DNA of 64,000 nucleotides from a virus. Positions 6,164 to 60,284 of the stretch are shown here, piece by piece. The first letter of the stretch is position 1. Each line of letters begins with the position of its first letter. The position numbers and the translations under genes are program-made. The notes under the pieces were generated by a model that had not been told where the DNA came from, made no database searches, and was given only the letters and a program-made list of their open reading frames with translations. The DNA lies in IMG/VR virus record IMGVR_UViG_3300037297_000178, positions 97,984-161,983 of that record. One strand, written 5' to 3'.

Positions 6164-6544
6164 ATGAAATTGTTGAAGCGTTTAGAACAGGTTAGGGCCA
6201 GAAATCTCGAATCTGAGCAGGTTCGGGGAAGGGTGAGGGAATCACTTCGCCCGGCTATCGTCGATGCTGTCAGGCTCGAGTTCAAGAAGAGGACTGCTCT
6301 TGACCTTGACGATAGCATACCGGTTGTGCTGAGGTGGAAGGAGGACGCCTTCACCGTCCGCTTGTTTATAAACAATCACTGTTTTATTACAGGCATTGAG
6401 GGGAAGGTACGCATAAACGAGGTACTCGAGACGGGCGAATTTTCGTTGTCTTTTACAGGCACGTGGGTAGGGTACAGCACGCTAAAGGACGAGGCCGTGA
6501 TAGAACATGAGGACATCGAGGCGGTTGGGTTGAGGTTACTATGA
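6164..6544 (+). CDS. Hypothetical protein (126 aa)
   Basis: Strong GGAGGTGAATA ribosome site before ATG 6164. Helical N-terminal half (KRLEQVRARNLESEQVRGRVRESL), then a strand-rich half (FTVRLFINNHCFITGIEGK). Unknown function. Four-base overlap with rtcB. Confidence 0.6.
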   Translation: MKLLKRLEQVRARNLESEQVRGRVRESLRPAIVDAVRLEFKKRTALDLDDSIPVVLRWKEDAFTVRLFINNHCFITGIEGKVRINEVLETGEFSLSFTGTWVGYSTLKDEAVIEHEDIEAVGLRLL

Positions 6545-7737
6545 ACGTTTACCAGGGAAAAGGAAAAAGACTGTTGTTTTCGACGGTTGACCTCAACGAC
6601 ATCGAAGCACAGGCGCGTTTTCAGCTCGTGAACGCTCGTCAACACCCGTCTGTGGTTCGAATGGGCGTTATGCCCGACTGTCATGCCGGATACGACATCC
6701 CGATAGGCACGATGGTAGCGTCGACGGCTGCTTTCCCGCGCTTTGCGGGTGTTGACGGCGGTTGTGGGGTGCTTTATGGGCGGCTGTACCATTGGCGCGA
6801 GAAGAGGCCCATCCGCCCCGACGAGCTTGACCTCGAACAGGTTGTCGAGCGCATATACGAGTCTGTGCCGGTCGGGAATGGGCCTGACGGTTCGCGTAAG
6901 GAGTATTACACGAAGAACACGCCGTCCCTCGACCACCTCGAGGCGTCGCTGAAGGACGAGGTCGAGTACGAGGTGATGCTCCGGCAGGTCGGCACGCTCG
7001 GAGGTGGGAATCACTTCATCGAGCTTGACGTGAACGAGCGCGAGGAGGTGTGCTTTATGATACACACCGGCTCGCGTAAGGCCGGTCACACCATAGGCTC
7101 GTTCTATGAGAAGGTTGCAGAAGACCTCATGGACACGTTCTATGTGTCCGACGCTCCTTCCCCATTCCTTCCCTGTGGTATCGTGCGGTCTAACATGTAC
7201 TTACAGGCACAGGAATGGACCGTCGAGTACGCGAAACTGAATCGCTATGCCATAGCGAAGCACGTTATTCAGGCTATCTGCGACGCACTCGGGGCTGACC
7301 GTAATGTGTATGAGTGCGAGCGCGTCGAGAGCGTCCATAACTTCGTCGAGACGGGCACGCTCGAGGGGCAGGACGTATTCATTCACAGAAAAGGTGCGAT
7401 ACGCCTTCCGCCCGGCGAACTTGGCGTGATTCCCGGCCATATGGGCGGGCACTCGTTCGTGGTGAGAGGGGTTGAGTCGGAATGGGCCGAAAAGGTGCTT
7501 CACACCGCCCCTCACGGGGCCGGGCGCGTTATGGGCCGACGCGAGGCGAAGCGAGAGCTTGACCTCGAGGAACAACAGGCGATAATGAAGGGCATTGTCA
7601 ATCGGCTCGACGCAGAACGGCTCGATGAAGCGCCGGGCGCTTACAAAGACCCGGACGAGGTTATCAGGGTGTGCGTTGAGAACGAACTGCTCGAGGTGGT
7701 TGAAGTTCTTTCCCCGATAGCTAACGTAAAGGGGTAA
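6541..7737 (+). CDS. rtcB: RtcB-type RNA ligase
   Basis: RtcB joins RNA 2',3'-cyclic phosphate or 3'-phosphate ends to 5'-OH ends using GTP and Mn2+, and heals tRNAs cut by nucleases. Visible signatures: GVMPDCHAGYDIPIGT (residues 42-57), GVDGGCG with D72 and C75 (metal ligands), GTLGGGNHFIEL with H158, IHTGSR with H175, HRKGA (282-286) and HTAPHGAGR with H325, the expected guanylylated histidine. At 398 aa it is shorter than the cellular enzyme (about 480) but all catalytic motifs are present. The gene sits shortly after two tRNA genes. In this window with interrupted and anticodon-less tRNA-like RNAs, a tRNA repair role against host anticodon nucleases is likely, though inferred. Confidence 0.93.
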   Translation: MNVYQGKGKRLLFSTVDLNDIEAQARFQLVNARQHPSVVRMGVMPDCHAGYDIPIGTMVASTAAFPRFAGVDGGCGVLYGRLYHWREKRPIRPDELDLEQVVERIYESVPVGNGPDGSRKEYYTKNTPSLDHLEASLKDEVEYEVMLRQVGTLGGGNHFIELDVNEREEVCFMIHTGSRKAGHTIGSFYEKVAEDLMDTFYVSDAPSPFLPCGIVRSNMYLQAQEWTVEYAKLNRYAIAKHVIQAICDALGADRNVYECERVESVHNFVETGTLEGQDVFIHRKGAIRLPPGELGVIPGHMGGHSFVVRGVESEWAEKVLHTAPHGAGRVMGRREAKRELDLEEQQAIMKGIVNRLDAERLDEAPGAYKDPDEVIRVCVENELLEVVEVLSPIANVKG

Positions 7738-17076: not shown

Positions 17077-17105
17077 ATTATAGCACTGGCCGACCACCTT
17101 GTCAA
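17077..17105 (-). promoter_or_regulatory. Promoter of gene at 17024
   Basis: Minus strand TTGACA (17105-17100), 17 bases, TATAAT (17082-17077), then the recurrent leader GAGTTAAGGATTAAAAAC and AGAGTAAAGGAG. Confidence 0.92.
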
Positions 17106-41500: not shown

Positions 41501-41619
41501 TTCTAACATCCTCCTTAGCGCTAAAGATTTTTGATAGTATGCTCACATTATACCACACGTACACCCCCACATAGAGGGGGGAGTCGCCCACTTATAACGG
41601 AAGCTACACCAAAACTTAC

Positions 41620-41648
41620 TTGACAACATGTTGGGGCAGGTGTATAAT
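41620..41648 (+). promoter_or_regulatory. Promoter of tandem-motif RNA and gene at 41910
   Basis: TTGACA (41620-41625), 17 bases, TATAAT (41643-41648). Confidence 0.93.
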
Positions 41649-41682
41649 ACCTTTAGTTCATTAACAAAAACTAAAATCATTT

Positions 41683-41874
41683 GTCAGTGCCCCCGCGAGA
41701 GTAGTCGAGGAGGTCGGGGCACAAATCCCCCTCTTGAATGAGGCGCGTGAAGTATTAGGGCCTGACGGGGCAGAACCGACCGGGAAGGAGCTTCCCGGGG
41801 CCAGCGAGAGTAGCGCGAGCGTTCGGGGCACGAATCCCCCTCAGTAACGAGGTCGACGAAGCCGGGGCACTGAC
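41683..41874 (+). ncRNA. Structured leader RNA with two tandem motifs
   Basis: An 11-bp helix joins GTCAGTGCCCC (41683-41693) with GGGGCACTGAC (41864-41874). Inside are two similar units of about 56 bases (41695-41750 and 41802-41857): GCGAGAGTAG, then GGGG-CAC(A/G)AAT-CCCC, then CCTC-N6-GAGG, ending CG.GAAG. They are separated by the hairpin CCGGGAAG-GAG-CTTCCCGG. It lies in the 5' leader of the gene at 41910 with 35 bases to the start codon. A tandem aptamer, that is a riboswitch-like regulator, is one option and a processed stable RNA another. Confidence 0.7.
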
Positions 41875-41909
41875 AAGCGATTTTAGGGAAGAGTAAAGGA
41901 TAACCCATT

Positions 41910-42248
41910 ATGAGTATAAATATCATGTTGGGTTTCCGAAACGAGAGCGGCGGGTGCTCGTTCATACCGGACGCGCCCGACGTTAATCTCAGCAACACTA
42001 ACGGTGAGATTTTCATTCGAATGGGAAAGAAGGAACCCCTGACGGGTGACACCGTTTCCGGCGAATTTCCTATCGCCGACCTCGAGAGGTTTGTGGCTGA
42101 CATACACGTCGCAATCTTCAACAAGGTCCAGGATGGGACTTTCACCGCCCACGAGACGCTTTACTGGATGGGAAAGCTAAAAGACCTTGCGATAATGCTC
42201 GGCTTTAGCCTCAACTGTCCTGAAGCAACCCTCGTCTACTGGGGCTGA
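41910..42248 (+). CDS. Hypothetical protein (112 aa)
   Basis: ATG 41910 with AGAGTAAAGGA upstream. Strand-rich (GEIFIRMGKKEPLTGD) then helix (LERFVADIHVAIFNKV). No family recognised. It is the only gene between the leader RNA and the giant-RNA promoter. Confidence 0.6.
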   Translation: MSINIMLGFRNESGGCSFIPDAPDVNLSNTNGEIFIRMGKKEPLTGDTVSGEFPIADLERFVADIHVAIFNKVQDGTFTAHETLYWMGKLKDLAIMLGFSLNCPEATLVYWG

Positions 42249-42411
42249 GAGTTTCGGAAACCGGCCCCCGACCATAGGCCGACCCCCCCGGGTCGAATAG
42301 TCGGGAAACACTGACCGGGCAGTGGGGAATGAGGCGAATTACCCGGAAATTCGCCGAAAACACTGTTATGACTTTGTGATACATTGTTATGCGTTTGTGA
42401 TGAAAAAACCC

Positions 42412-42440
42412 TTGACAAGAATACAACCCAGGTGTATAAT
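42412..42440 (+). promoter_or_regulatory. Promoter of the giant structured RNA
   Basis: TTGACA (42412-42417), 17 bases, TATAAT (42435-42440). Upstream TTGTTATGCGTTTGTGATG matches the block before the promoter at 27034. Confidence 0.93.
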
Positions 42441-44151
42441 AAGGGTGTAAGGTTGAGGAACGCGGTAACATTAAAAACACAGAGGCAGGAGTTAGGCCCG
42501 AATAAGGGGGGGCGGAAACGAAAGAAGCGCTTGAAGTCTCTCACCAGCCCCGACAACTCTCCGACTAGGACACGCCGAAAGCCCGACTACTACCCGCCGA
42601 CACCGAAGAGAGGAAAAACCTCTCAGAGGCGGGACACCGAAAAGACACCCACACGGGTAAGCGAGTAAGCGGAAAGATACAACCCGAAGGGCGGGGCCGG
42701 TGAAAGCCTTCAAGCGAAGATGACGCCTCAGACAGAGCCTTGACAATAGGCACACAGATAAGACCTTGATTGTCAAACAGGCGAGATAAAATCCCTCACT
42801 GAAAAGGTGAGAGGGAGCTGAGGGTCAACGGCGAAACCCGACGAGGTTCACCCGGCCTCGGAAATCAGGGGAACGCTGAGCTACCGGGTGAAGGGGGCGG
42901 GACTGAGGAACGGTAAAACGAGAAGGTCCCGCCTCCGACAGGGGTGCTCAAGCACCGGTCTAGGAATAAGGACTGAGGAGCGCCCCACAAACTGAGATAA
43001 AACCCGCTCGAGGGTGAAGGGAAACCTCACCGGCCCACACCCGAAGGGTTAAAAAAGAGGAGAGCCTGAGCCGGGCTTCGGCCCGGCCAGGAATGAAGCT
43101 AAAAACGCCGGTGACACCTTCGGGAACCCCCGACCGAAGGCGAGGCGAACAGGGTGAGTGGGCGATGGGTCAGGCCCGAAACTGACCCCGGCCTAATGAG
43201 GAACGGTCGGTCCGAGAAGCCGACCAGAGGAGCGAGGGCCTCTGACCTCGAGGGGAACGCGGGACATCCCCTTAAAACAAACCCCGCCGGGGACGCCGCT
43301 ACAACGAGGCGTCGGGAACCCGCCACGAGCGGGAACACGAGCCGGTCCGACAATCCGGCTCAACCGAAGGACACCATCGGGGCCTTCCCCCCTCACCTCG
43401 TAAACTCTCCGACAAGGACCAGCCCCGAGTTAACAACCCCTCACACAAGATGCTGTGACGGGAAGGGAAGCGGGAAACCCACAAAAAACCCGCAGGGGCG
43501 AAAGCCCCGGAACACCCCCGGTCGGTGACAATCCGGGAGAATCAAAAAGTCACCCCCCTCCCTGACGGGGAAGAATAGTCCGGGCGGGGCCTGCCCCGAA
43601 GGCGGGCGGTGGGTTACGACCCTCACAGTCAGTCCGAAAAGCTGACCTTAACAGACTAGAACACCGATTGAGCCGACCGGATAATTGCCCCCCGGATGGA
43701 AGGCGAGGTGAGTGACAGGGCGGGCCTGAGTGAGGCTCCGAACCACAACCGACGGGAACGGGTCGATAAGGGTAAGGGTTTACAGACCTCAACTTCCACT
43801 CACTCAGACGACAAGAGGCGACCCACGAAACAAACAATCGGGCCGTCTGGCCGGTAAGGTCGGAGATAAACGGTGAAGGCACAATGACAGCGGGACGCTG
43901 ACCCACTCAGAAGCGCAATTCCTGACACAAAGGGAAACGTGGCGAGCAATGGGAAGGCCGCCCAGCCGGAAGAACCGGGCAAGAAGAGCCGCTCCGACGC
44001 CCGAAGGGAGCTTGAACCGACCCCCCTCAAGAGGTCGGCGCGACAGAACCGATACAGCCCGTGAATGGTCGGGCCGGTGAAAGTGACACCGGACGCCGAC
44101 AATAGTCGGGAAGAAGAGCCAGGAGGCGACCTAAGGTTCGGCGAGCTACAT

Positions 44152-44237
44152 CGGTCGACATAGGGGATGGAGACCCCTACCTGTCTGTAAAACAGGCTGT
44201 GGATGCCACATTGAAGGTTCGAATCCTTCTCGACCGA
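44152..44237 (+). tRNA. tRNA-Tyr (GUA anticodon) embedded in giant RNA
   Basis: Acceptor CGGTCGA/TCGACCG, anticodon stem CCTGT/ACAGG with loop CTGTAAA (anticodon GUA), long variable arm TGTGG-ATG-CCACA as expected for bacterial tRNA-Tyr, T arm GAAGG-TTCGAAT-CCTTC, discriminator A. The D stem can extend to 6 bp (TAGGGG/CCCCTA), unusual for Tyr. It has no promoter of its own and follows the giant RNA directly. Confidence 0.88.
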
Positions 44238-44490
44238 CCTTAGCCGGAACGCCGAAGATGACTAGGCAGGGACAGCGCATTTGGACAAGAAAACACACCC
44301 ATCAGGAGACGTAAGGCGGACGATAGCCGAAAGTCAAGAGGCGACCCCGGAACGCCGACGAATGTGAGGACTGCCCCCCCCTCACACGAGGCACAGGGGC
44401 TACGGGGCCGGGGCCGGACAACCCCGGACGTGAGAGGCGACACGAACTCGCCTCAAGGGTAAATCCCCCCTCGAGAAGACGGGGGACGAC

Positions 44491-44524
44491 GGGAAGCTAC
44501 ACTAACGCGTTAGTGTAGCTTCCC
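44491..44524. repeat. Perfect 34-base palindrome
   Basis: GGGAAGCTACACTAACG followed by its exact reverse complement. In RNA it gives a 15-17 bp hairpin with almost no loop; in DNA a possible cruciform or dimer-protein site. Confidence 0.95.
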
Positions 44525-44784
44525 CCCACACACGAGGCGAGCTTGTCGTGCGGGCGTCAGGTCTGACCACCTGAGACAACCCGCAACGCGCGAAAGCGCG
44601 AAACAAGCACGGGCAGGCGGTCAGGTTTGTCCGGGGCGGTGAGGCGAGAGCAAGACCGCCTCGTGTGTGGGACCCATAGGTGTCAAGCGAAGCGGTCGAC
44701 CAGCAGGTCCCCCGTTTCCATGACGATGGACAGCCCGGGTGTGGGGAAACCCATAGAGCGGACAGACTCCGGTCTAGGGCAGGC

Positions 44785-44813
44785 TTGACACCGCCTTAAA
44801 CTCGATGTATAAT
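44785..44813 (+). promoter_or_regulatory. Promoter of interrupted tRNA-like gene
   Basis: TTGACA (44785-44790), 17 bases, TATAAT (44808-44813). Confidence 0.93.
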
Positions 44814-44824
44814 CGAGTTACGTG

Positions 44825-44972
44825 AGCAGTGGAGTCCGGGACGACGCGCCGGACGATTGACGTTTAGCTGAGCCGTGACGACGGGGGCCTTACTCAGCCT
44901 GAGGTTGAAGCGGAAGCGTCAAGGCCCGCGAGCGACGGTTCGCGGTTGGGGGTTTGAATCCCCCCGCTGCTA
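44825..44972 (+). tRNA. tRNA-like gene with 47-base insertion in the anticodon loop
   Basis: Acceptor AGCAGTG (44825) pairs with CGCTGCT (44965-44971), discriminator A. T arm GGGGG-TTTGAAT-CCCCC; long variable arm CCGCGA/TCGCGG (44927-44945); D stem GTCCGG/CCGGAC of 6 bp; anticodon stem TTGACG/CGTCAA (44857-44862 and 44917-44922). The loop is 54 bases instead of 7. Removing 47 bases leaves TTTAGAG or TTTAAAG, that is UAG or UAA (Leu), in line with the long variable arm. The insert folds (GCTGAG/CTCAGC, CCGT-GACG-ACGG). Too short for a group I intron. Confidence 0.65.
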
Positions 44973-45169
44973 CTATGTCTGAATTGTGGGGCGGGAAGGG
45001 GGGCGTTGCAAGCCCCCTTCCCGAAGCCCCTGTGAGGTGGTCGGAGCGCACAAGCGTGAACATAGAATGTAAATGCGCCTCATTGCTGCCGACCACCAGC
45101 CCGCCCGCGCGGGTGTTCTGTCCGGGAACGCGGGATAACCCGGAACCTTTACTCTACTTAACTCTGGTA

Positions 45170-45227
45170 TTCGGGATGGGAAACCGACAGGTCGGCCCCC
45201 CGGCGGGTTCGAGGCCCGCCCCCGAAA
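45170..45227 (+). ncRNA. Minimal tRNA-like fold without anticodon arm
   Basis: TTCGGG (45170-45175) pairs with CCCGAA (45221-45226) next to a T arm GGCGGG-TTCGAGG-CCCGCC (45202-45220), so 6+6 bp give the 12-bp acceptor-T stack of a tRNA. Only a small hairpin (GGG, CCGA-CAGG-TCGG, CCC) lies between. The T loop is canonical, but the fold could be a chance or merely structural element. Confidence 0.4.
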
Positions 45228-45259
45228 CTGACCGATTACTTTTATCTTTGTTGAATCGA

Positions 45260-45560
45260 AGGAGGCCCGTGTGAACGGAAGGTGGTTATCTCGCCTCAGT
45301 TACGACGGCTGGTGGGTGCGCGAGAAGGTCGACAGACCCCGCCCGCCACGCATTGTAAGAGGCGCATGTCTACCGCCAATTATGCCTCGTGAGAGGCTTT
45401 GCGGCGATGGTGTTTTCGAAGGGAAGCAGCCGGTCGACTTGAACGGGAAAAGGGCCTACGCCCCGGGGTGCGCTGCTTCCCCGACCTGGTTAATGGGTCG
45501 GTTGGGAAGTCGACCAGTATATGAGTGTGACCGGCGCGAGGTGACAGGGCACATCTAACC
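45260..45560 (+). ncRNA. Structured RNA segment with pseudoknot
   Basis: GGGAAGCAGC (45421-45430) pairs with GCTGCTTCCC (45472-45481), and GGTCGACTT (45432-45440) with AAGTCGACC (45507-45515), interleaved as a pseudoknot. The hairpin GCCTC-GTGA-GAGGC (45384-45397) lies inside a CCGC/GCGG helix. A 95-aa frame (GTG 45271 with GAAGGAGG) covers the same bases, so a coding role is not excluded. Confidence 0.5.
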
Positions 45561-45660
45561 GGCCCGTGCCCAGGCCCCCGGGCCTGCAAATTACTGAGAA
45601 GCACCGGCTCGACCTTTCGTCGGTCACACCTGTGTAAAACGACCGGGAAGACCCCTGGGA

Positions 45661-45881
45661 GTTTCCGACCCCTTGCGGGGATTGGGGTATTCCAACACCG
45701 GATGAGGTTTGTGGTGATGCGCCGATGAACAAGTTTCCGACCATAACACATGGGTAATTTAGACATCGAACCCGGGAAGTTTCCAACCCCTTGCAAGGGG
45801 TTGAGGGGTATTCTGACTTCATCACGGGGTACACTACTGCGGAGGGGACGAAGTTTCCGACTCCCGATACTACTAGCGAGG
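45661..45881 (+). CRISPR. Degenerate CRISPR-like repeats (mini-array or solitary repeats)
   Basis: Two long repeats: 45661-45696 (36 nt) and 45779-45817 (39 nt), both GTTTCC(G/A)ACCCCTTGC, GGGG, then GGGGTATTC(C/T)(A/G)AC, with the hairpin CCCC-TTGC-GGGG typical of CRISPR repeats. Each is followed by 36 or 35 non-repeated bases and then a partial repeat starting GTTTCCGAC (45733, 45853). No cas gene is present. It could be a decayed mini-array, an RNA anti-CRISPR of the solitary-repeat kind, or coincidental structural motifs. Confidence 0.45.
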
Positions 45882-45916: not shown

Positions 45917-46504
45917 ATGCAATACCATAAGCTATTCAGAAAAAAGGCCCGCGAGCTACCGACGGGCTATCAGCACGACATGAGGACTGTACACAGGAAT
46001 CGCGTCGTGTCGCAGGTGTCGCGCACAGGCGAACAGGTATCGCTCAAATATCGGAGCGGTCCGTCTGCCCGGGTCGACGGGGACGACGAGGTGTACGTAT
46101 CGAGTAACGAGCACATACACTACGTGATGTTACGGGAAGTTCCTGCCCCAGGTTTGAGGGCGGTCGAGGTTGACCCGATTGTTTACGGAACCGACTTAAT
46201 GATAATCAAAGACCGCCCTGAGTTCGAGGAGGGGATGGTCGGACACCTCGACGCGTTCGAGGGGACGTGGGTGTTCGTGCGGGCGATACGCTTCGGCGAC
46301 TGGCCCGAAGGTGTCGAACTCACTGTCCGCAACTTCGACACAGGCGTCGAAGTGTTTGTCGGTGAACGGTCACACGCGTTTTTGTACGTGTGCGGGAAAT
46401 TCGAGGTCGGCGAAGGCGAGTTCGACCTCGAACTCGGTACGTACCTGAGTAGAGACGAATTTCAAGAGGAATTACTAAAGGAGGCACATCGTGAGAGACA
46501 TTGA
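45917..46504 (+). CDS. YG...WYF-module protein (195 aa)
   Basis: ATG 45917 behind TAAGGAGAAGAT. Near residues 93-125 it has VYGTDLMIIKD...GMVGHLDAFEGTWVF, a module repeated in the genes at 46491, 60299, 60838 and 61982. Basic N-terminus. Strand-rich and probably a small barrel. Directly downstream of the RNA-rich region, so it might be cotranscribed with it. Confidence 0.6.
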   Translation: MQYHKLFRKKARELPTGYQHDMRTVHRNRVVSQVSRTGEQVSLKYRSGPSARVDGDDEVYVSSNEHIHYVMLREVPAPGLRAVEVDPIVYGTDLMIIKDRPEFEEGMVGHLDAFEGTWVFVRAIRFGDWPEGVELTVRNFDTGVEVFVGERSHAFLYVCGKFEVGEGEFDLELGTYLSRDEFQEELLKEAHRERH

Positions 46505-53456: not shown

Positions 53457-53747
53457 ATGCTTAGTGTACAGGTGTTAGACAAACTTCCTGAGACGCTCAC
53501 GGTGAATCGCACGTTATGGGGGAGAATACGAGAGGCAGTGCTTGAAAACGCCGCCGCGCTGAAGGACGGGAAGGTGCTCGAGTTCACGGTCGACGACAAG
53601 AAGGTGTGTACGTCGGGACAGTCGGCAATACAGCAGCTTAACGGGCGCGGGGTGCTTGTGGGGTACAGGCTCCGAACCCGCACGACCCCCATTGACGGGC
53701 GTGACGGGAAGTGGAAGCTGTACGTGTACGCAGAACAGAGGGGTTGA
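53457..53747 (+). CDS. Hypothetical protein (96 aa)
   Basis: ATG 53457 behind GAAGGAGAGGTAAAC. Alpha/beta (RTLWGRIREAVLENAAALKD, VLEFTVDDKKVC). Its last codons overlap the tmRNA-like domain by 8 bases, so cleavage of the transcript at the RNA 5' end would remove the stop codon. Confidence 0.6.
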   Translation: MLSVQVLDKLPETLTVNRTLWGRIREAVLENAAALKDGKVLEFTVDDKKVCTSGQSAIQQLNGRGVLVGYRLRTRTTPIDGRDGKWKLYVYAEQRG

Positions 53748-53804
53748 CAGGTTTCGACTCAGCCGAGAGGTGTGAGGACCCCGGTTCGATTCCGGGCAAC
53801 TCCA
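53740..53804 (+). ncRNA. Miniature tmRNA-like tRNA domain (about 65 nt, no tag frame)
   Basis: Acceptor GGGGTTG (53740-53746) pairs with CAACTCC (53797-53803), with G3.U70 and discriminator A, the alanine identity set shared with tmRNA. ACAGGTTTCGAC matches the conserved 5' segment of tmRNA (GGTTTCGAC). The T arm is CCCGG-TTCGATT-CCGGG. Instead of an anticodon arm or a long tmRNA body there is one hairpin, CTCAGCC-GAGA-GGTGTGAG, capped by a GNRA loop with one bulged G. There is no room for a tag-coding region. CCA is not encoded. Confidence 0.7.
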
Positions 53805-53974
53805 TGAGGTGGTGCTATGAGACGTTTCAAAATGGTCAAGCTCAGAACGGGTGTGTGGGTGTCACAGGCGCAGGTTCACCCGACAATACATTGAGATACC
53901 CGTCTGCGCTGTTATGCTTTCGGCTTTACAATATGACGGCGAAGTGAGGGTTGACACCCTCGAAAGGACTTAGA
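53805..53974 (+). other. Short intergenic after tmRNA-like RNA
   Basis: 170 bases holding only the doubtful 25-aa frame and a GAGGG-TTGACA-CCCTC hairpin. No tag-like coding region with tmRNA features is visible. Confidence 0.5.
53817..53894 (+). CDS. Possible short basic peptide (25 aa)
   Basis: ATG 53817 with GAGGTGGTG upstream, MRRFKMVKLRTGVWV. It directly follows the tmRNA-like domain. Could be chance. Confidence 0.3.
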   Translation: MRRFKMVKLRTGVWVSQAQVHPTIH

Positions 53975-59423: not shown

Positions 59424-59452
59424 TTGACAAGTAAACGGAGCAGGTGTATAAT
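59424..59452 (+). promoter_or_regulatory. Promoter of second long RNA
   Basis: TTGACA (59424-59429), 17 bases, TATAAT (59447-59452). The transcript begins with the AGTATCAG...AGTTAAAAAC leader also found before protein genes. Confidence 0.93.
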
Positions 59453-60037
59453 AGTATCAGAAAGTTAAAAACAGAATATCAGTAACGTTTCGGAGCTTGT
59501 GAGGGCCAGCCTCACCCGCGAGAACAAAAGTGCAGAATAGAGGGTATCGCGGTAGCCTGAAGGCCCTCACAAGCTCCGAAGCGAGAGTGACGGGAAGACA
59601 GCCCGAAGGCCCCCCACAGGGAGGGTCGAGGGTAAGGAAACTCACCTCAGGGAACACCTAATAACGCGAGGCCCTTGAAAGCCCCGCTAGGCCCCGGCCT
59701 TAGAAACCGGGAAACTCGGAAAGCCTGACAGCGAGTACGAGGCCCACATCAAACCTGAAAATCCGAAAGCGGAACGCCGAGATACCTGAGAAGGTTAAGC
59801 GAGCGGCGAAAGTGAATAAGGAGGTGAGGGTCAACCCAAAACAAAAAGAAGGGGGTCGGGAAGCCTGACCAGCGGACCGACCCCCGGTCGAGGCGGGGGC
59901 GCGGACAGTCGCCGATGGGATGACTAACAGCTTGTAAGGCTCGGTCAGAGCCGAATACGGGAACGGATAAAGCCGCCCGACCCATCAAGACCGGGGTATC
60001 CCGGGGTAATACCCGCCTCGACCATCTAGAAAATTAT

Positions 60038-60118
60038 GGGGTCACTGCTAGGGGCAGCCGGTCGAAAAGACGCGAAAGCGTATCGACCGGGCGATGGGTT
60101 CGAAACCCATTGACTCCA
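60038..60118 (+). ncRNA. Anticodon-less tRNA-like domain with G3.U70
   Basis: Acceptor GGGGTCA/TGACTCC with G3.U70 and discriminator A; D-like arm CTGC-TAGGG-GCAG; T arm ATGGG-TTCGAAA-CCCAT. The anticodon arm is replaced by CCGGTCGA/TCGACCGG continued by ACGC-GAAA-GCGT, a 12-bp GNRA-capped helix. A118 is followed by CC but the encoded end is not a full CCA. Alanyl-tRNA synthetase recognises G3.U70, so alanine charging is plausible. Confidence 0.75.
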
Positions 60119-60261
60119 CCTAAACCCTCGAGGGAAGTCGCGCCCCCTCACACGAAAACCTTCACTACCAAGAAGCCCACGTCAAATCGGGGATGAGGAG
60201 AACGAAGGCTCGGACGTGAAATGCCGGTAAGGAGTGGCGAGCGTAACGGAGGGTAAACGAG

Positions 60262-60284
60262 GCGAAAGCCTCAAATTTTTTTGC
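60262..60284 (+). terminator. Terminator of second long RNA
   Basis: GAGGC-GAAA-GCCTC then AAATTTTTTT. Confidence 0.8.

Follow-up and report, generated by a model that had tools for sequence, protein, structure and literature searches.

The locus examined here raises the question of what a phage may encode in a 2.34-kb stretch that starts at one perfect promoter, ends at another, holds a tRNA and shows no signs of coding. The preliminary description of this DNA had proposed a very large structured noncoding RNA with an embedded tRNA-Tyr. Our analysis points in the same direction, and the presence of a real structured noncoding RNA is, judging from the sequence, highly probable; every sequence-level test was in favor of it, while its production as a single 2.3-kb transcript is something that we infer. 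The window, i.e., the whole stretch of DNA analyzed, covers the terminal 64 kb of an IMG/VR virus record of 161,983 bases (IMGVR_UViG_3300037297_000178) and all positions below refer to it unless otherwise noted. The record represents a tailed phage with a terminase, a DnaE polymerase, a DnaB-like helicase and nine tRNA genes. No close relative of it was present in the collections searched. A terminase pattern search in IMG/VR retrieved this very virus, with identity extending beyond 24 kb, followed by relatives with at most 52% identity. The nearest terminase among GenBank phages was that of Streptomyces phage TurkishDelight (45%), and the sole terminase match in bacterial genomes was found in a contig of a Chloroflexi MAG (46%).

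The putative RNA, hereafter RNA1, spans positions 42449-44790 of the plus strand and is supported by its compositional skew, absence of period-3, folding z-score and comparison with Rfam. Its start was placed according to promoter P1 and its 3' end according to the end of the T-poor stretch and the next promoter. As previously claimed, a consensus promoter lies ahead of the region: P1 (42412-42440, plus strand) is of the sigma-70 type, with the sequence TTGACA-N17-TATAAT and 12/12 matches. The poverty in T was also evident, since RNA1 consists of 28% A, 29% C, 32% G and 11.5% T, against a genome mean of 22% T. The low-T stretch stops where a second perfect promoter, P2 (44785-44813, plus strand; TTGACA-N17-TATAAT, 12/12 matches), begins. 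No other segment of this size in the record reaches the A-over-T skew of the 2342 bases starting at 42418 (0.42, against a genome mean of 0.01 with an sd of 0.10); the next-highest value (0.24) overlaps a second putative RNA, designated RNA2 and described below. At the same time, the GC skew is close to zero in RNA1 while the AT skew is extreme, and such a composition, with similar amounts of G and C and a large surplus of A over T, is what paired G-C stems plus unpaired A give. The reported lack of a coding signal was borne out by a period-3 ratio of 0.5-2.4 across the stretch, compared to a window median of 3.9, and by a search of 42442-45262 in which no Shine-Dalgarno-like motif was found 4-9 bases before a start codon. 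No intrinsic terminator for RNA1 was detected before 45240. The lack of TTTT over 2.8 kb was considered as further evidence and rejected, because the genome contains two longer TTTT-free runs.

P1 belongs to a wider promoter family. The pattern TTGACA-N16..18-TATAATA occurs in 8 copies in the window and in none of 100 shuffles, and it thus appears to be the phage's own promoter type. For many other members of the family, a GAGTAAAGGAG-like ribosome-binding site belonging to a gene follows after about 40 bases, a site that is missing downstream of P1 and of the RNA2 promoter (59424-59452, plus strand), the latter showing 82% identity to P1 in a 45-base alignment. Promoters of the form TTGACAAG...TATAATA are distributed across the whole record, for example at window positions 17105(-), 24782(-), 27034(-), 58385 and 58846, and several of the genes under their control have a common leader ending in GAGTAAAGGAG. 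The same promoter also precedes a region located 22.9 kb into the record, which was found to be coding. At 41620-41905 (plus strand), another perfect promoter is succeeded by a leader of 250 nt, with a 112-aa gene downstream. A long-range stem of 26 nt with 88% complementarity closes this leader, in which a 52-nt motif with GGGGCACRAATCCCC hairpins is present twice, the copies being 75% alike.

Regarding folding, the full-length energy of RNA1 was calculated at -984 kcal/mol, versus -871 +/- 15 kcal/mol for dinucleotide shuffles (z -7.7). As controls, nine equally long coding segments of the window yielded z-scores between -1.1 and -5.0, with 7-30 kcal/mol of excess energy per 1000 nt, while the respective excess was 48 kcal/mol for RNA1 and 73 kcal/mol for RNA2. 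The antisense strand of RNA1 also folds with a z-score of -7.1, and thus the strand is set by the promoter and the composition, not by the energy. Local sliding windows of 200 nt in RNA1 showed modest z-scores only, as would be expected if much of its structure is long-range. The preliminary description had also emphasized GNRA and UUCG hairpins as well as A-rich loops. UNCG loops were indeed enriched (3 vs. 0.24 expected; 0/200 shuffles), whereas GNRA loops showed no clear enrichment (3 vs. 1.5 expected). The A-rich loops were discarded as structural evidence, as composition alone accounts for them, the fraction of unpaired A being 0.50 in RNA1 and 0.51 in shuffles.

The helices of RNA1 were predicted from one sequence, and 2.3-kb structures predicted in this manner are partly wrong. 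Among the predicted elements are a long 5' hairpin (42528-42716, plus strand), in which 42528-42552 would pair with 42692-42716 through 22 pairs with a probability of 0.91-0.93, and a central long-range domain (43381-43959, plus strand), closed by 43381-43389 and 43951-43959 with a probability of about 0.9. A 3' domain (44525-44671, plus strand) would be closed by a 14-bp helix and would expose two complementary 6-nt loops. Directly upstream of it lies a perfect 34-nt palindrome (44491-44524; GGGAAGCTACACTAACGCGTTAGTGTAGCTTCCC), which could form a 15-bp hairpin and is a possible self-pairing site. Part of the palindrome, GGAAGCTACAC, is found again at 41599-41609, next to another promoter.

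The embedded tRNA-Tyr-like element is located in the 3' third of RNA1 (44152-44239, plus strand) and was reported by ARAGORN as a cloverleaf with a GTA anticodon and a long variable arm. Its Rfam tRNA score is 29.6 bits (cut-off 29), as opposed to 55-68 bits for the other Rfam-listed tRNAs of the record. In bacteria, the identity rules for tRNA-Tyr are G1:C72 and U8. Direct reading of the embedded element gave C1:G72 and C8, along with A73, so that of the earlier assignment the cloverleaf with its GTA anticodon stands, but the bacterial tRNA-Tyr rules are not followed, a departure absent from the preliminary description. With C1:G72, a bacterial TyrRS would be expected to charge the element poorly. 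A predicted helix, TCGGCG/CGCCGA (44138-44143 with 44250-44255, plus strand; probability 0.70-0.84), brackets the element, and for this reason the tRNA may remain inside RNA1.

RNA2, which had also gone unmentioned, is a putative structured noncoding RNA of 0.82 kb (59460-60283, plus strand) with 13% T, a folding z-score of -6.3 and no period-3, and it repeats the plan of RNA1 on a smaller scale. Its 3' end is an intrinsic terminator, consisting of GAGGCGAAAGCCTC followed by TTTTTTT. An Rfam scan of RNA2 with E-values up to 5, including the GOLLD, ROOL, OLE, HEARO, intron, rRNA and tmRNA models, gave no match. At 60038-60118 (plus strand) RNA2 carries a tRNA-like cloverleaf without an anticodon, comprising a 7-bp acceptor, a D hairpin and a 5-bp T arm with the loop TTCGAAA, while a long GAAA-capped hairpin replaces the anticodon arm. 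The acceptor is of the alanine type, given that G3.U70 and A73 are alanine identity elements and that both were found by direct reading at 60040, 60115 and 60118. RNA1 and RNA2 share the promoter and short words only, and homology between them is therefore not claimed.

The predicted hairpin loops suggest potential loop-loop contacts. Among the 62 hairpin loops predicted for RNA1, the sole 6-base complementary pair is CTGACC (44563-44568) and GGTCAG (44619-44624) on the plus strand, each making up a whole 6-nt loop (P 0.00065 among the 6-nt loops of RNA1). Among the 22 predicted loops of RNA2, the sole 5-base complementary pair involves the same word, with the loops CTGACCA (59865-59871) and GGTCA (59943-59947) in hairpins at 59851-59952 (plus strand). 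Either pair by itself is no more than suggestive (P 0.07 in RNA1 for any 6-mer and 0.06 in RNA2 for any 5-mer). The one strong result is that the word coincides in the two RNAs, with P 0.0002 in 10,000 permutations of a test that was post hoc and based on predicted loops. If real, CTGACC/GGTCAG would permit contacts within each RNA, between copies of the same RNA and between RNA1 and RNA2.

Further tRNA-like elements were sought on both strands of the record (324 kb) with a strict scan demanding a perfect 5-bp T arm, a T-type loop and a 7-bp acceptor. The nine matches were five ordinary tRNAs, the RNA1 tRNA, the RNA2 element, an element at 44825-44971 and a CDS-less tmRNA at 53740. All of them lie in tRNAs or noncoding RNAs and 0/9 is a false match in a gene, so a chance origin of the RNA2 element and of the one after P2 is unlikely. 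The latter, another addition to the preliminary description, is a tRNA-like domain designated RNA3 (plus strand), situated directly after P2, which would drive it. It possesses a 7-bp acceptor, a D hairpin, a variable hairpin, a T arm with the loop TTTGAAT and A73; a long arm replaces the anticodon arm, and ARAGORN does not report it. RNA3 is followed by a structured noncoding stretch with a putative extent of 44980-45260 (plus strand), which holds a short series of tRNA-like hairpins around 45170-45229. The CDS-less tmRNA (53740-53807, plus strand) is a 68-nt fused tRNA-like domain without an mRNA part, which scores 47.6 bits with the Rfam tmRNA model (cut-off 47) and keeps G3.U70. Similar fused forms were found in 20 other IMG/VR contigs. 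The CDS-less tmRNA of phage DS6A has been reported to inhibit tmRNA when expressed (PMC11915505). RNA2 is comparable to this type in that it also has a G3.U70 acceptor without an anticodon, but its tRNA-like part contains a D stem and is not matched by the Rfam tmRNA model.

Concerning known RNA families, the statement that RNA1 matches no known class agreed with our Rfam comparison. With cmscan, at gathering thresholds and with E-values up to 5, no GOLLD, ROOL, OLE, HEARO, intron or rRNA match was obtained for 42200-45300, and the tRNA was the sole convincing match. According to these models RNA1 is not a member of the GOLLD, ROOL, OLE or HEARO families and appears to resemble them in kind; OLE, HEARO, group I and II introns and rRNA are also large structured bacterial RNAs, and none of them matches RNA1. 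The phage RNAs GOLLD and ROOL, for which no function is known, assemble into RNA-only cages by means of kissing loops and A-minor contacts, tRNAs are sometimes found in a linker of GOLLD, and ribosomes bind GOLLD in pull-downs (PMC12286853). ROOL is encoded by phages and prophages near tRNA islands and can equal 16S rRNA in abundance (PMC12286853). RNA1 is similar to GOLLD in being phage-encoded, large, apparently structured and associated with a tRNA, which in this case lies inside; however, the cage is known for GOLLD, while here a kissing pair is predicted. Moreover, RNA1 would be approximately 2.3 kb long as opposed to somewhat more than 800 nt, it does not match the GOLLD model, and in its sister RNA2 the place of a tRNA is taken by a tRNA-like domain lacking an anticodon. 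ROOL differs in its length of about 660 nt, and neither RNA1 nor RNA2 matches its Rfam model.

Searches for homologues were performed at several levels. Using blastn, no useful homologue was found for RNA1 and RNA2 in 50,697 phage records or for RNA1 in 72,556 plasmids. Comparison of the RNA1 DNA with 86 virus records, mainly terminase or DnaE relatives, revealed no homologue, and none was retrieved by the promoter-pattern and RNA1 leader-pattern searches. Neighboring proteins searched in IMG/VR, and one of them also in phages, gave nothing useful. The best chance match (G078, E 4.6e-5) proved to be a low-complexity coding stretch. T-poor stretches with low period-3 were also flagged in the terminase and DnaE relatives, and the five strongest among those inspected were runs of small genes.

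RNA1 is most likely a new class of giant phage RNA, similar to GOLLD and ROOL in its working. To the more specific reading, namely that it is a stand-alone giant structured phage RNA acting as a scaffold with a tethered tRNA, we would assign an even chance. Transcription from P1 would yield RNA1 as a single molecule of about 2.3 kb, which would fold into domains with loops contacting each other. The contacts could involve the CTGACC/GGTCAG kissing loops common to RNA2 and perhaps the 34-nt palindrome, and RNA1 could bind itself, RNA2 or both. The resulting scaffold or multimer would hold tethered tRNA-like parts, as has been proposed for GOLLD, with the bracketing helix keeping the tRNA in place rather than released, and the likely target would be the host translation system during infection. 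The promoter, the skew, the lack of period-3, the energy excess, the tRNA-like parts, the kissing word and the bracketing helix support the scaffold reading, while the points against it are that neither a terminator nor a homologue of RNA1 was found, the modest local z-scores and the antisense z-score. A two-part assembly of ribosome size, in which the 2.3-kb and 0.8-kb RNAs would be joined via CTGACC/GGTCAG to display the tRNA and the alanine-type mimics and to act on host translation, seems unlikely.

The main rivals of the scaffold reading are a processing precursor and a translation decoy. In the former, a transcript of the block at positions 42.4-45.3 kb would be cut by RNase P and tRNA 3'-processing enzymes at its tRNA and tRNA-like domains, which would serve as processing signals setting the ends of several smaller RNAs, one of about 1.7 kb before the tRNA. 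A tRNA-like element acts as a processing signal in the mammalian MALAT1 RNA. Such a role would suit the position of the tRNA-like domains, which are located toward the 3' end in RNA1 and in RNA2 as well as directly after P2, and RNA1, having no terminator, would need another way of forming its 3' end. Nevertheless, the intrinsic terminator of RNA2 is downstream of its tRNA-like domain, the predicted helix around the RNA1 tRNA would hinder RNase P, and T-poor structured sequence extends 550 nt past this tRNA; we regard the precursor as possible but doubtful. It differs from the scaffold in predicting pieces and not a full-length RNA. Somewhat less probable is that the RNAs serve as carriers for uncoding tRNA mimics, which would keep alanyl-tRNA synthetase, EF-Tu or the ribosome-rescue system occupied, beside the CDS-less tmRNA. 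The RNA2 tRNA-like part, with G3.U70, A73 and no anticodon, would be suitable for this, as would the 68-nt tmRNA of the phage, which has the form reported as tmRNA-inhibiting from DS6A (PMC11915505). However, 2.3 kb of structured RNA is more than a decoy requires, the RNA1 tRNA has a normal GTA anticodon loop, and the RNA2 part has no tmRNA model match.

Two further explanations were considered. The perfect 34-bp palindrome, the position of a noncoding block between gene sets and the strong strand skew could reflect a cis-acting element, such as a replication origin, a packaging RNA or a long regulatory leader, with a composition arising from strand-biased mutation and not from folding. We find this quite improbable: a GC skew near zero combined with an extreme AT skew fits paired G-C plus unpaired A better, RNA2 presents the same features 17 kb away with its own terminator, and the folding excess persists against dinucleotide shuffles. 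That the region is ordinary coding sequence or decayed intergenic DNA is hardly credible. Open frames of up to 124 aa do exist, but such frames are expected because low T makes stops rare, and they come with neither period-3 nor ribosome-binding sites; decay, for its part, would produce neither the energy excess nor shared kissing words.

In terms of significance, RNA1, if it is one transcript, would surpass 16S rRNA in size and be over two times as large as GOLLD usually is, and in a two-part assembly, if true, it would be to our knowledge the largest structured noncoding RNA from a phage. The anticodon-less alanine-type mimic of RNA2 would tie the giant phage RNA class to translation in a testable manner. 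What is new here is an unmatched, very large putative phage RNA with an internal tRNA, together with a sister RNA whose tRNA mimic lacks an anticodon; categorical novelty would require that RNA1 and RNA2 assemble together.

Finally, two further observations were made in the window. Downstream of the structured region, four AGTTTCCRAC repeats (at about 45660, 45733, 45778 and 45851) occur in a noncoding stretch at 45658-45865 (plus strand), before a gene at 45917. In addition, a 398-aa frame at 6541-7737 (plus strand) resembles by eye an RtcB-type RNA ligase, in a phage that is rich in structured RNAs.
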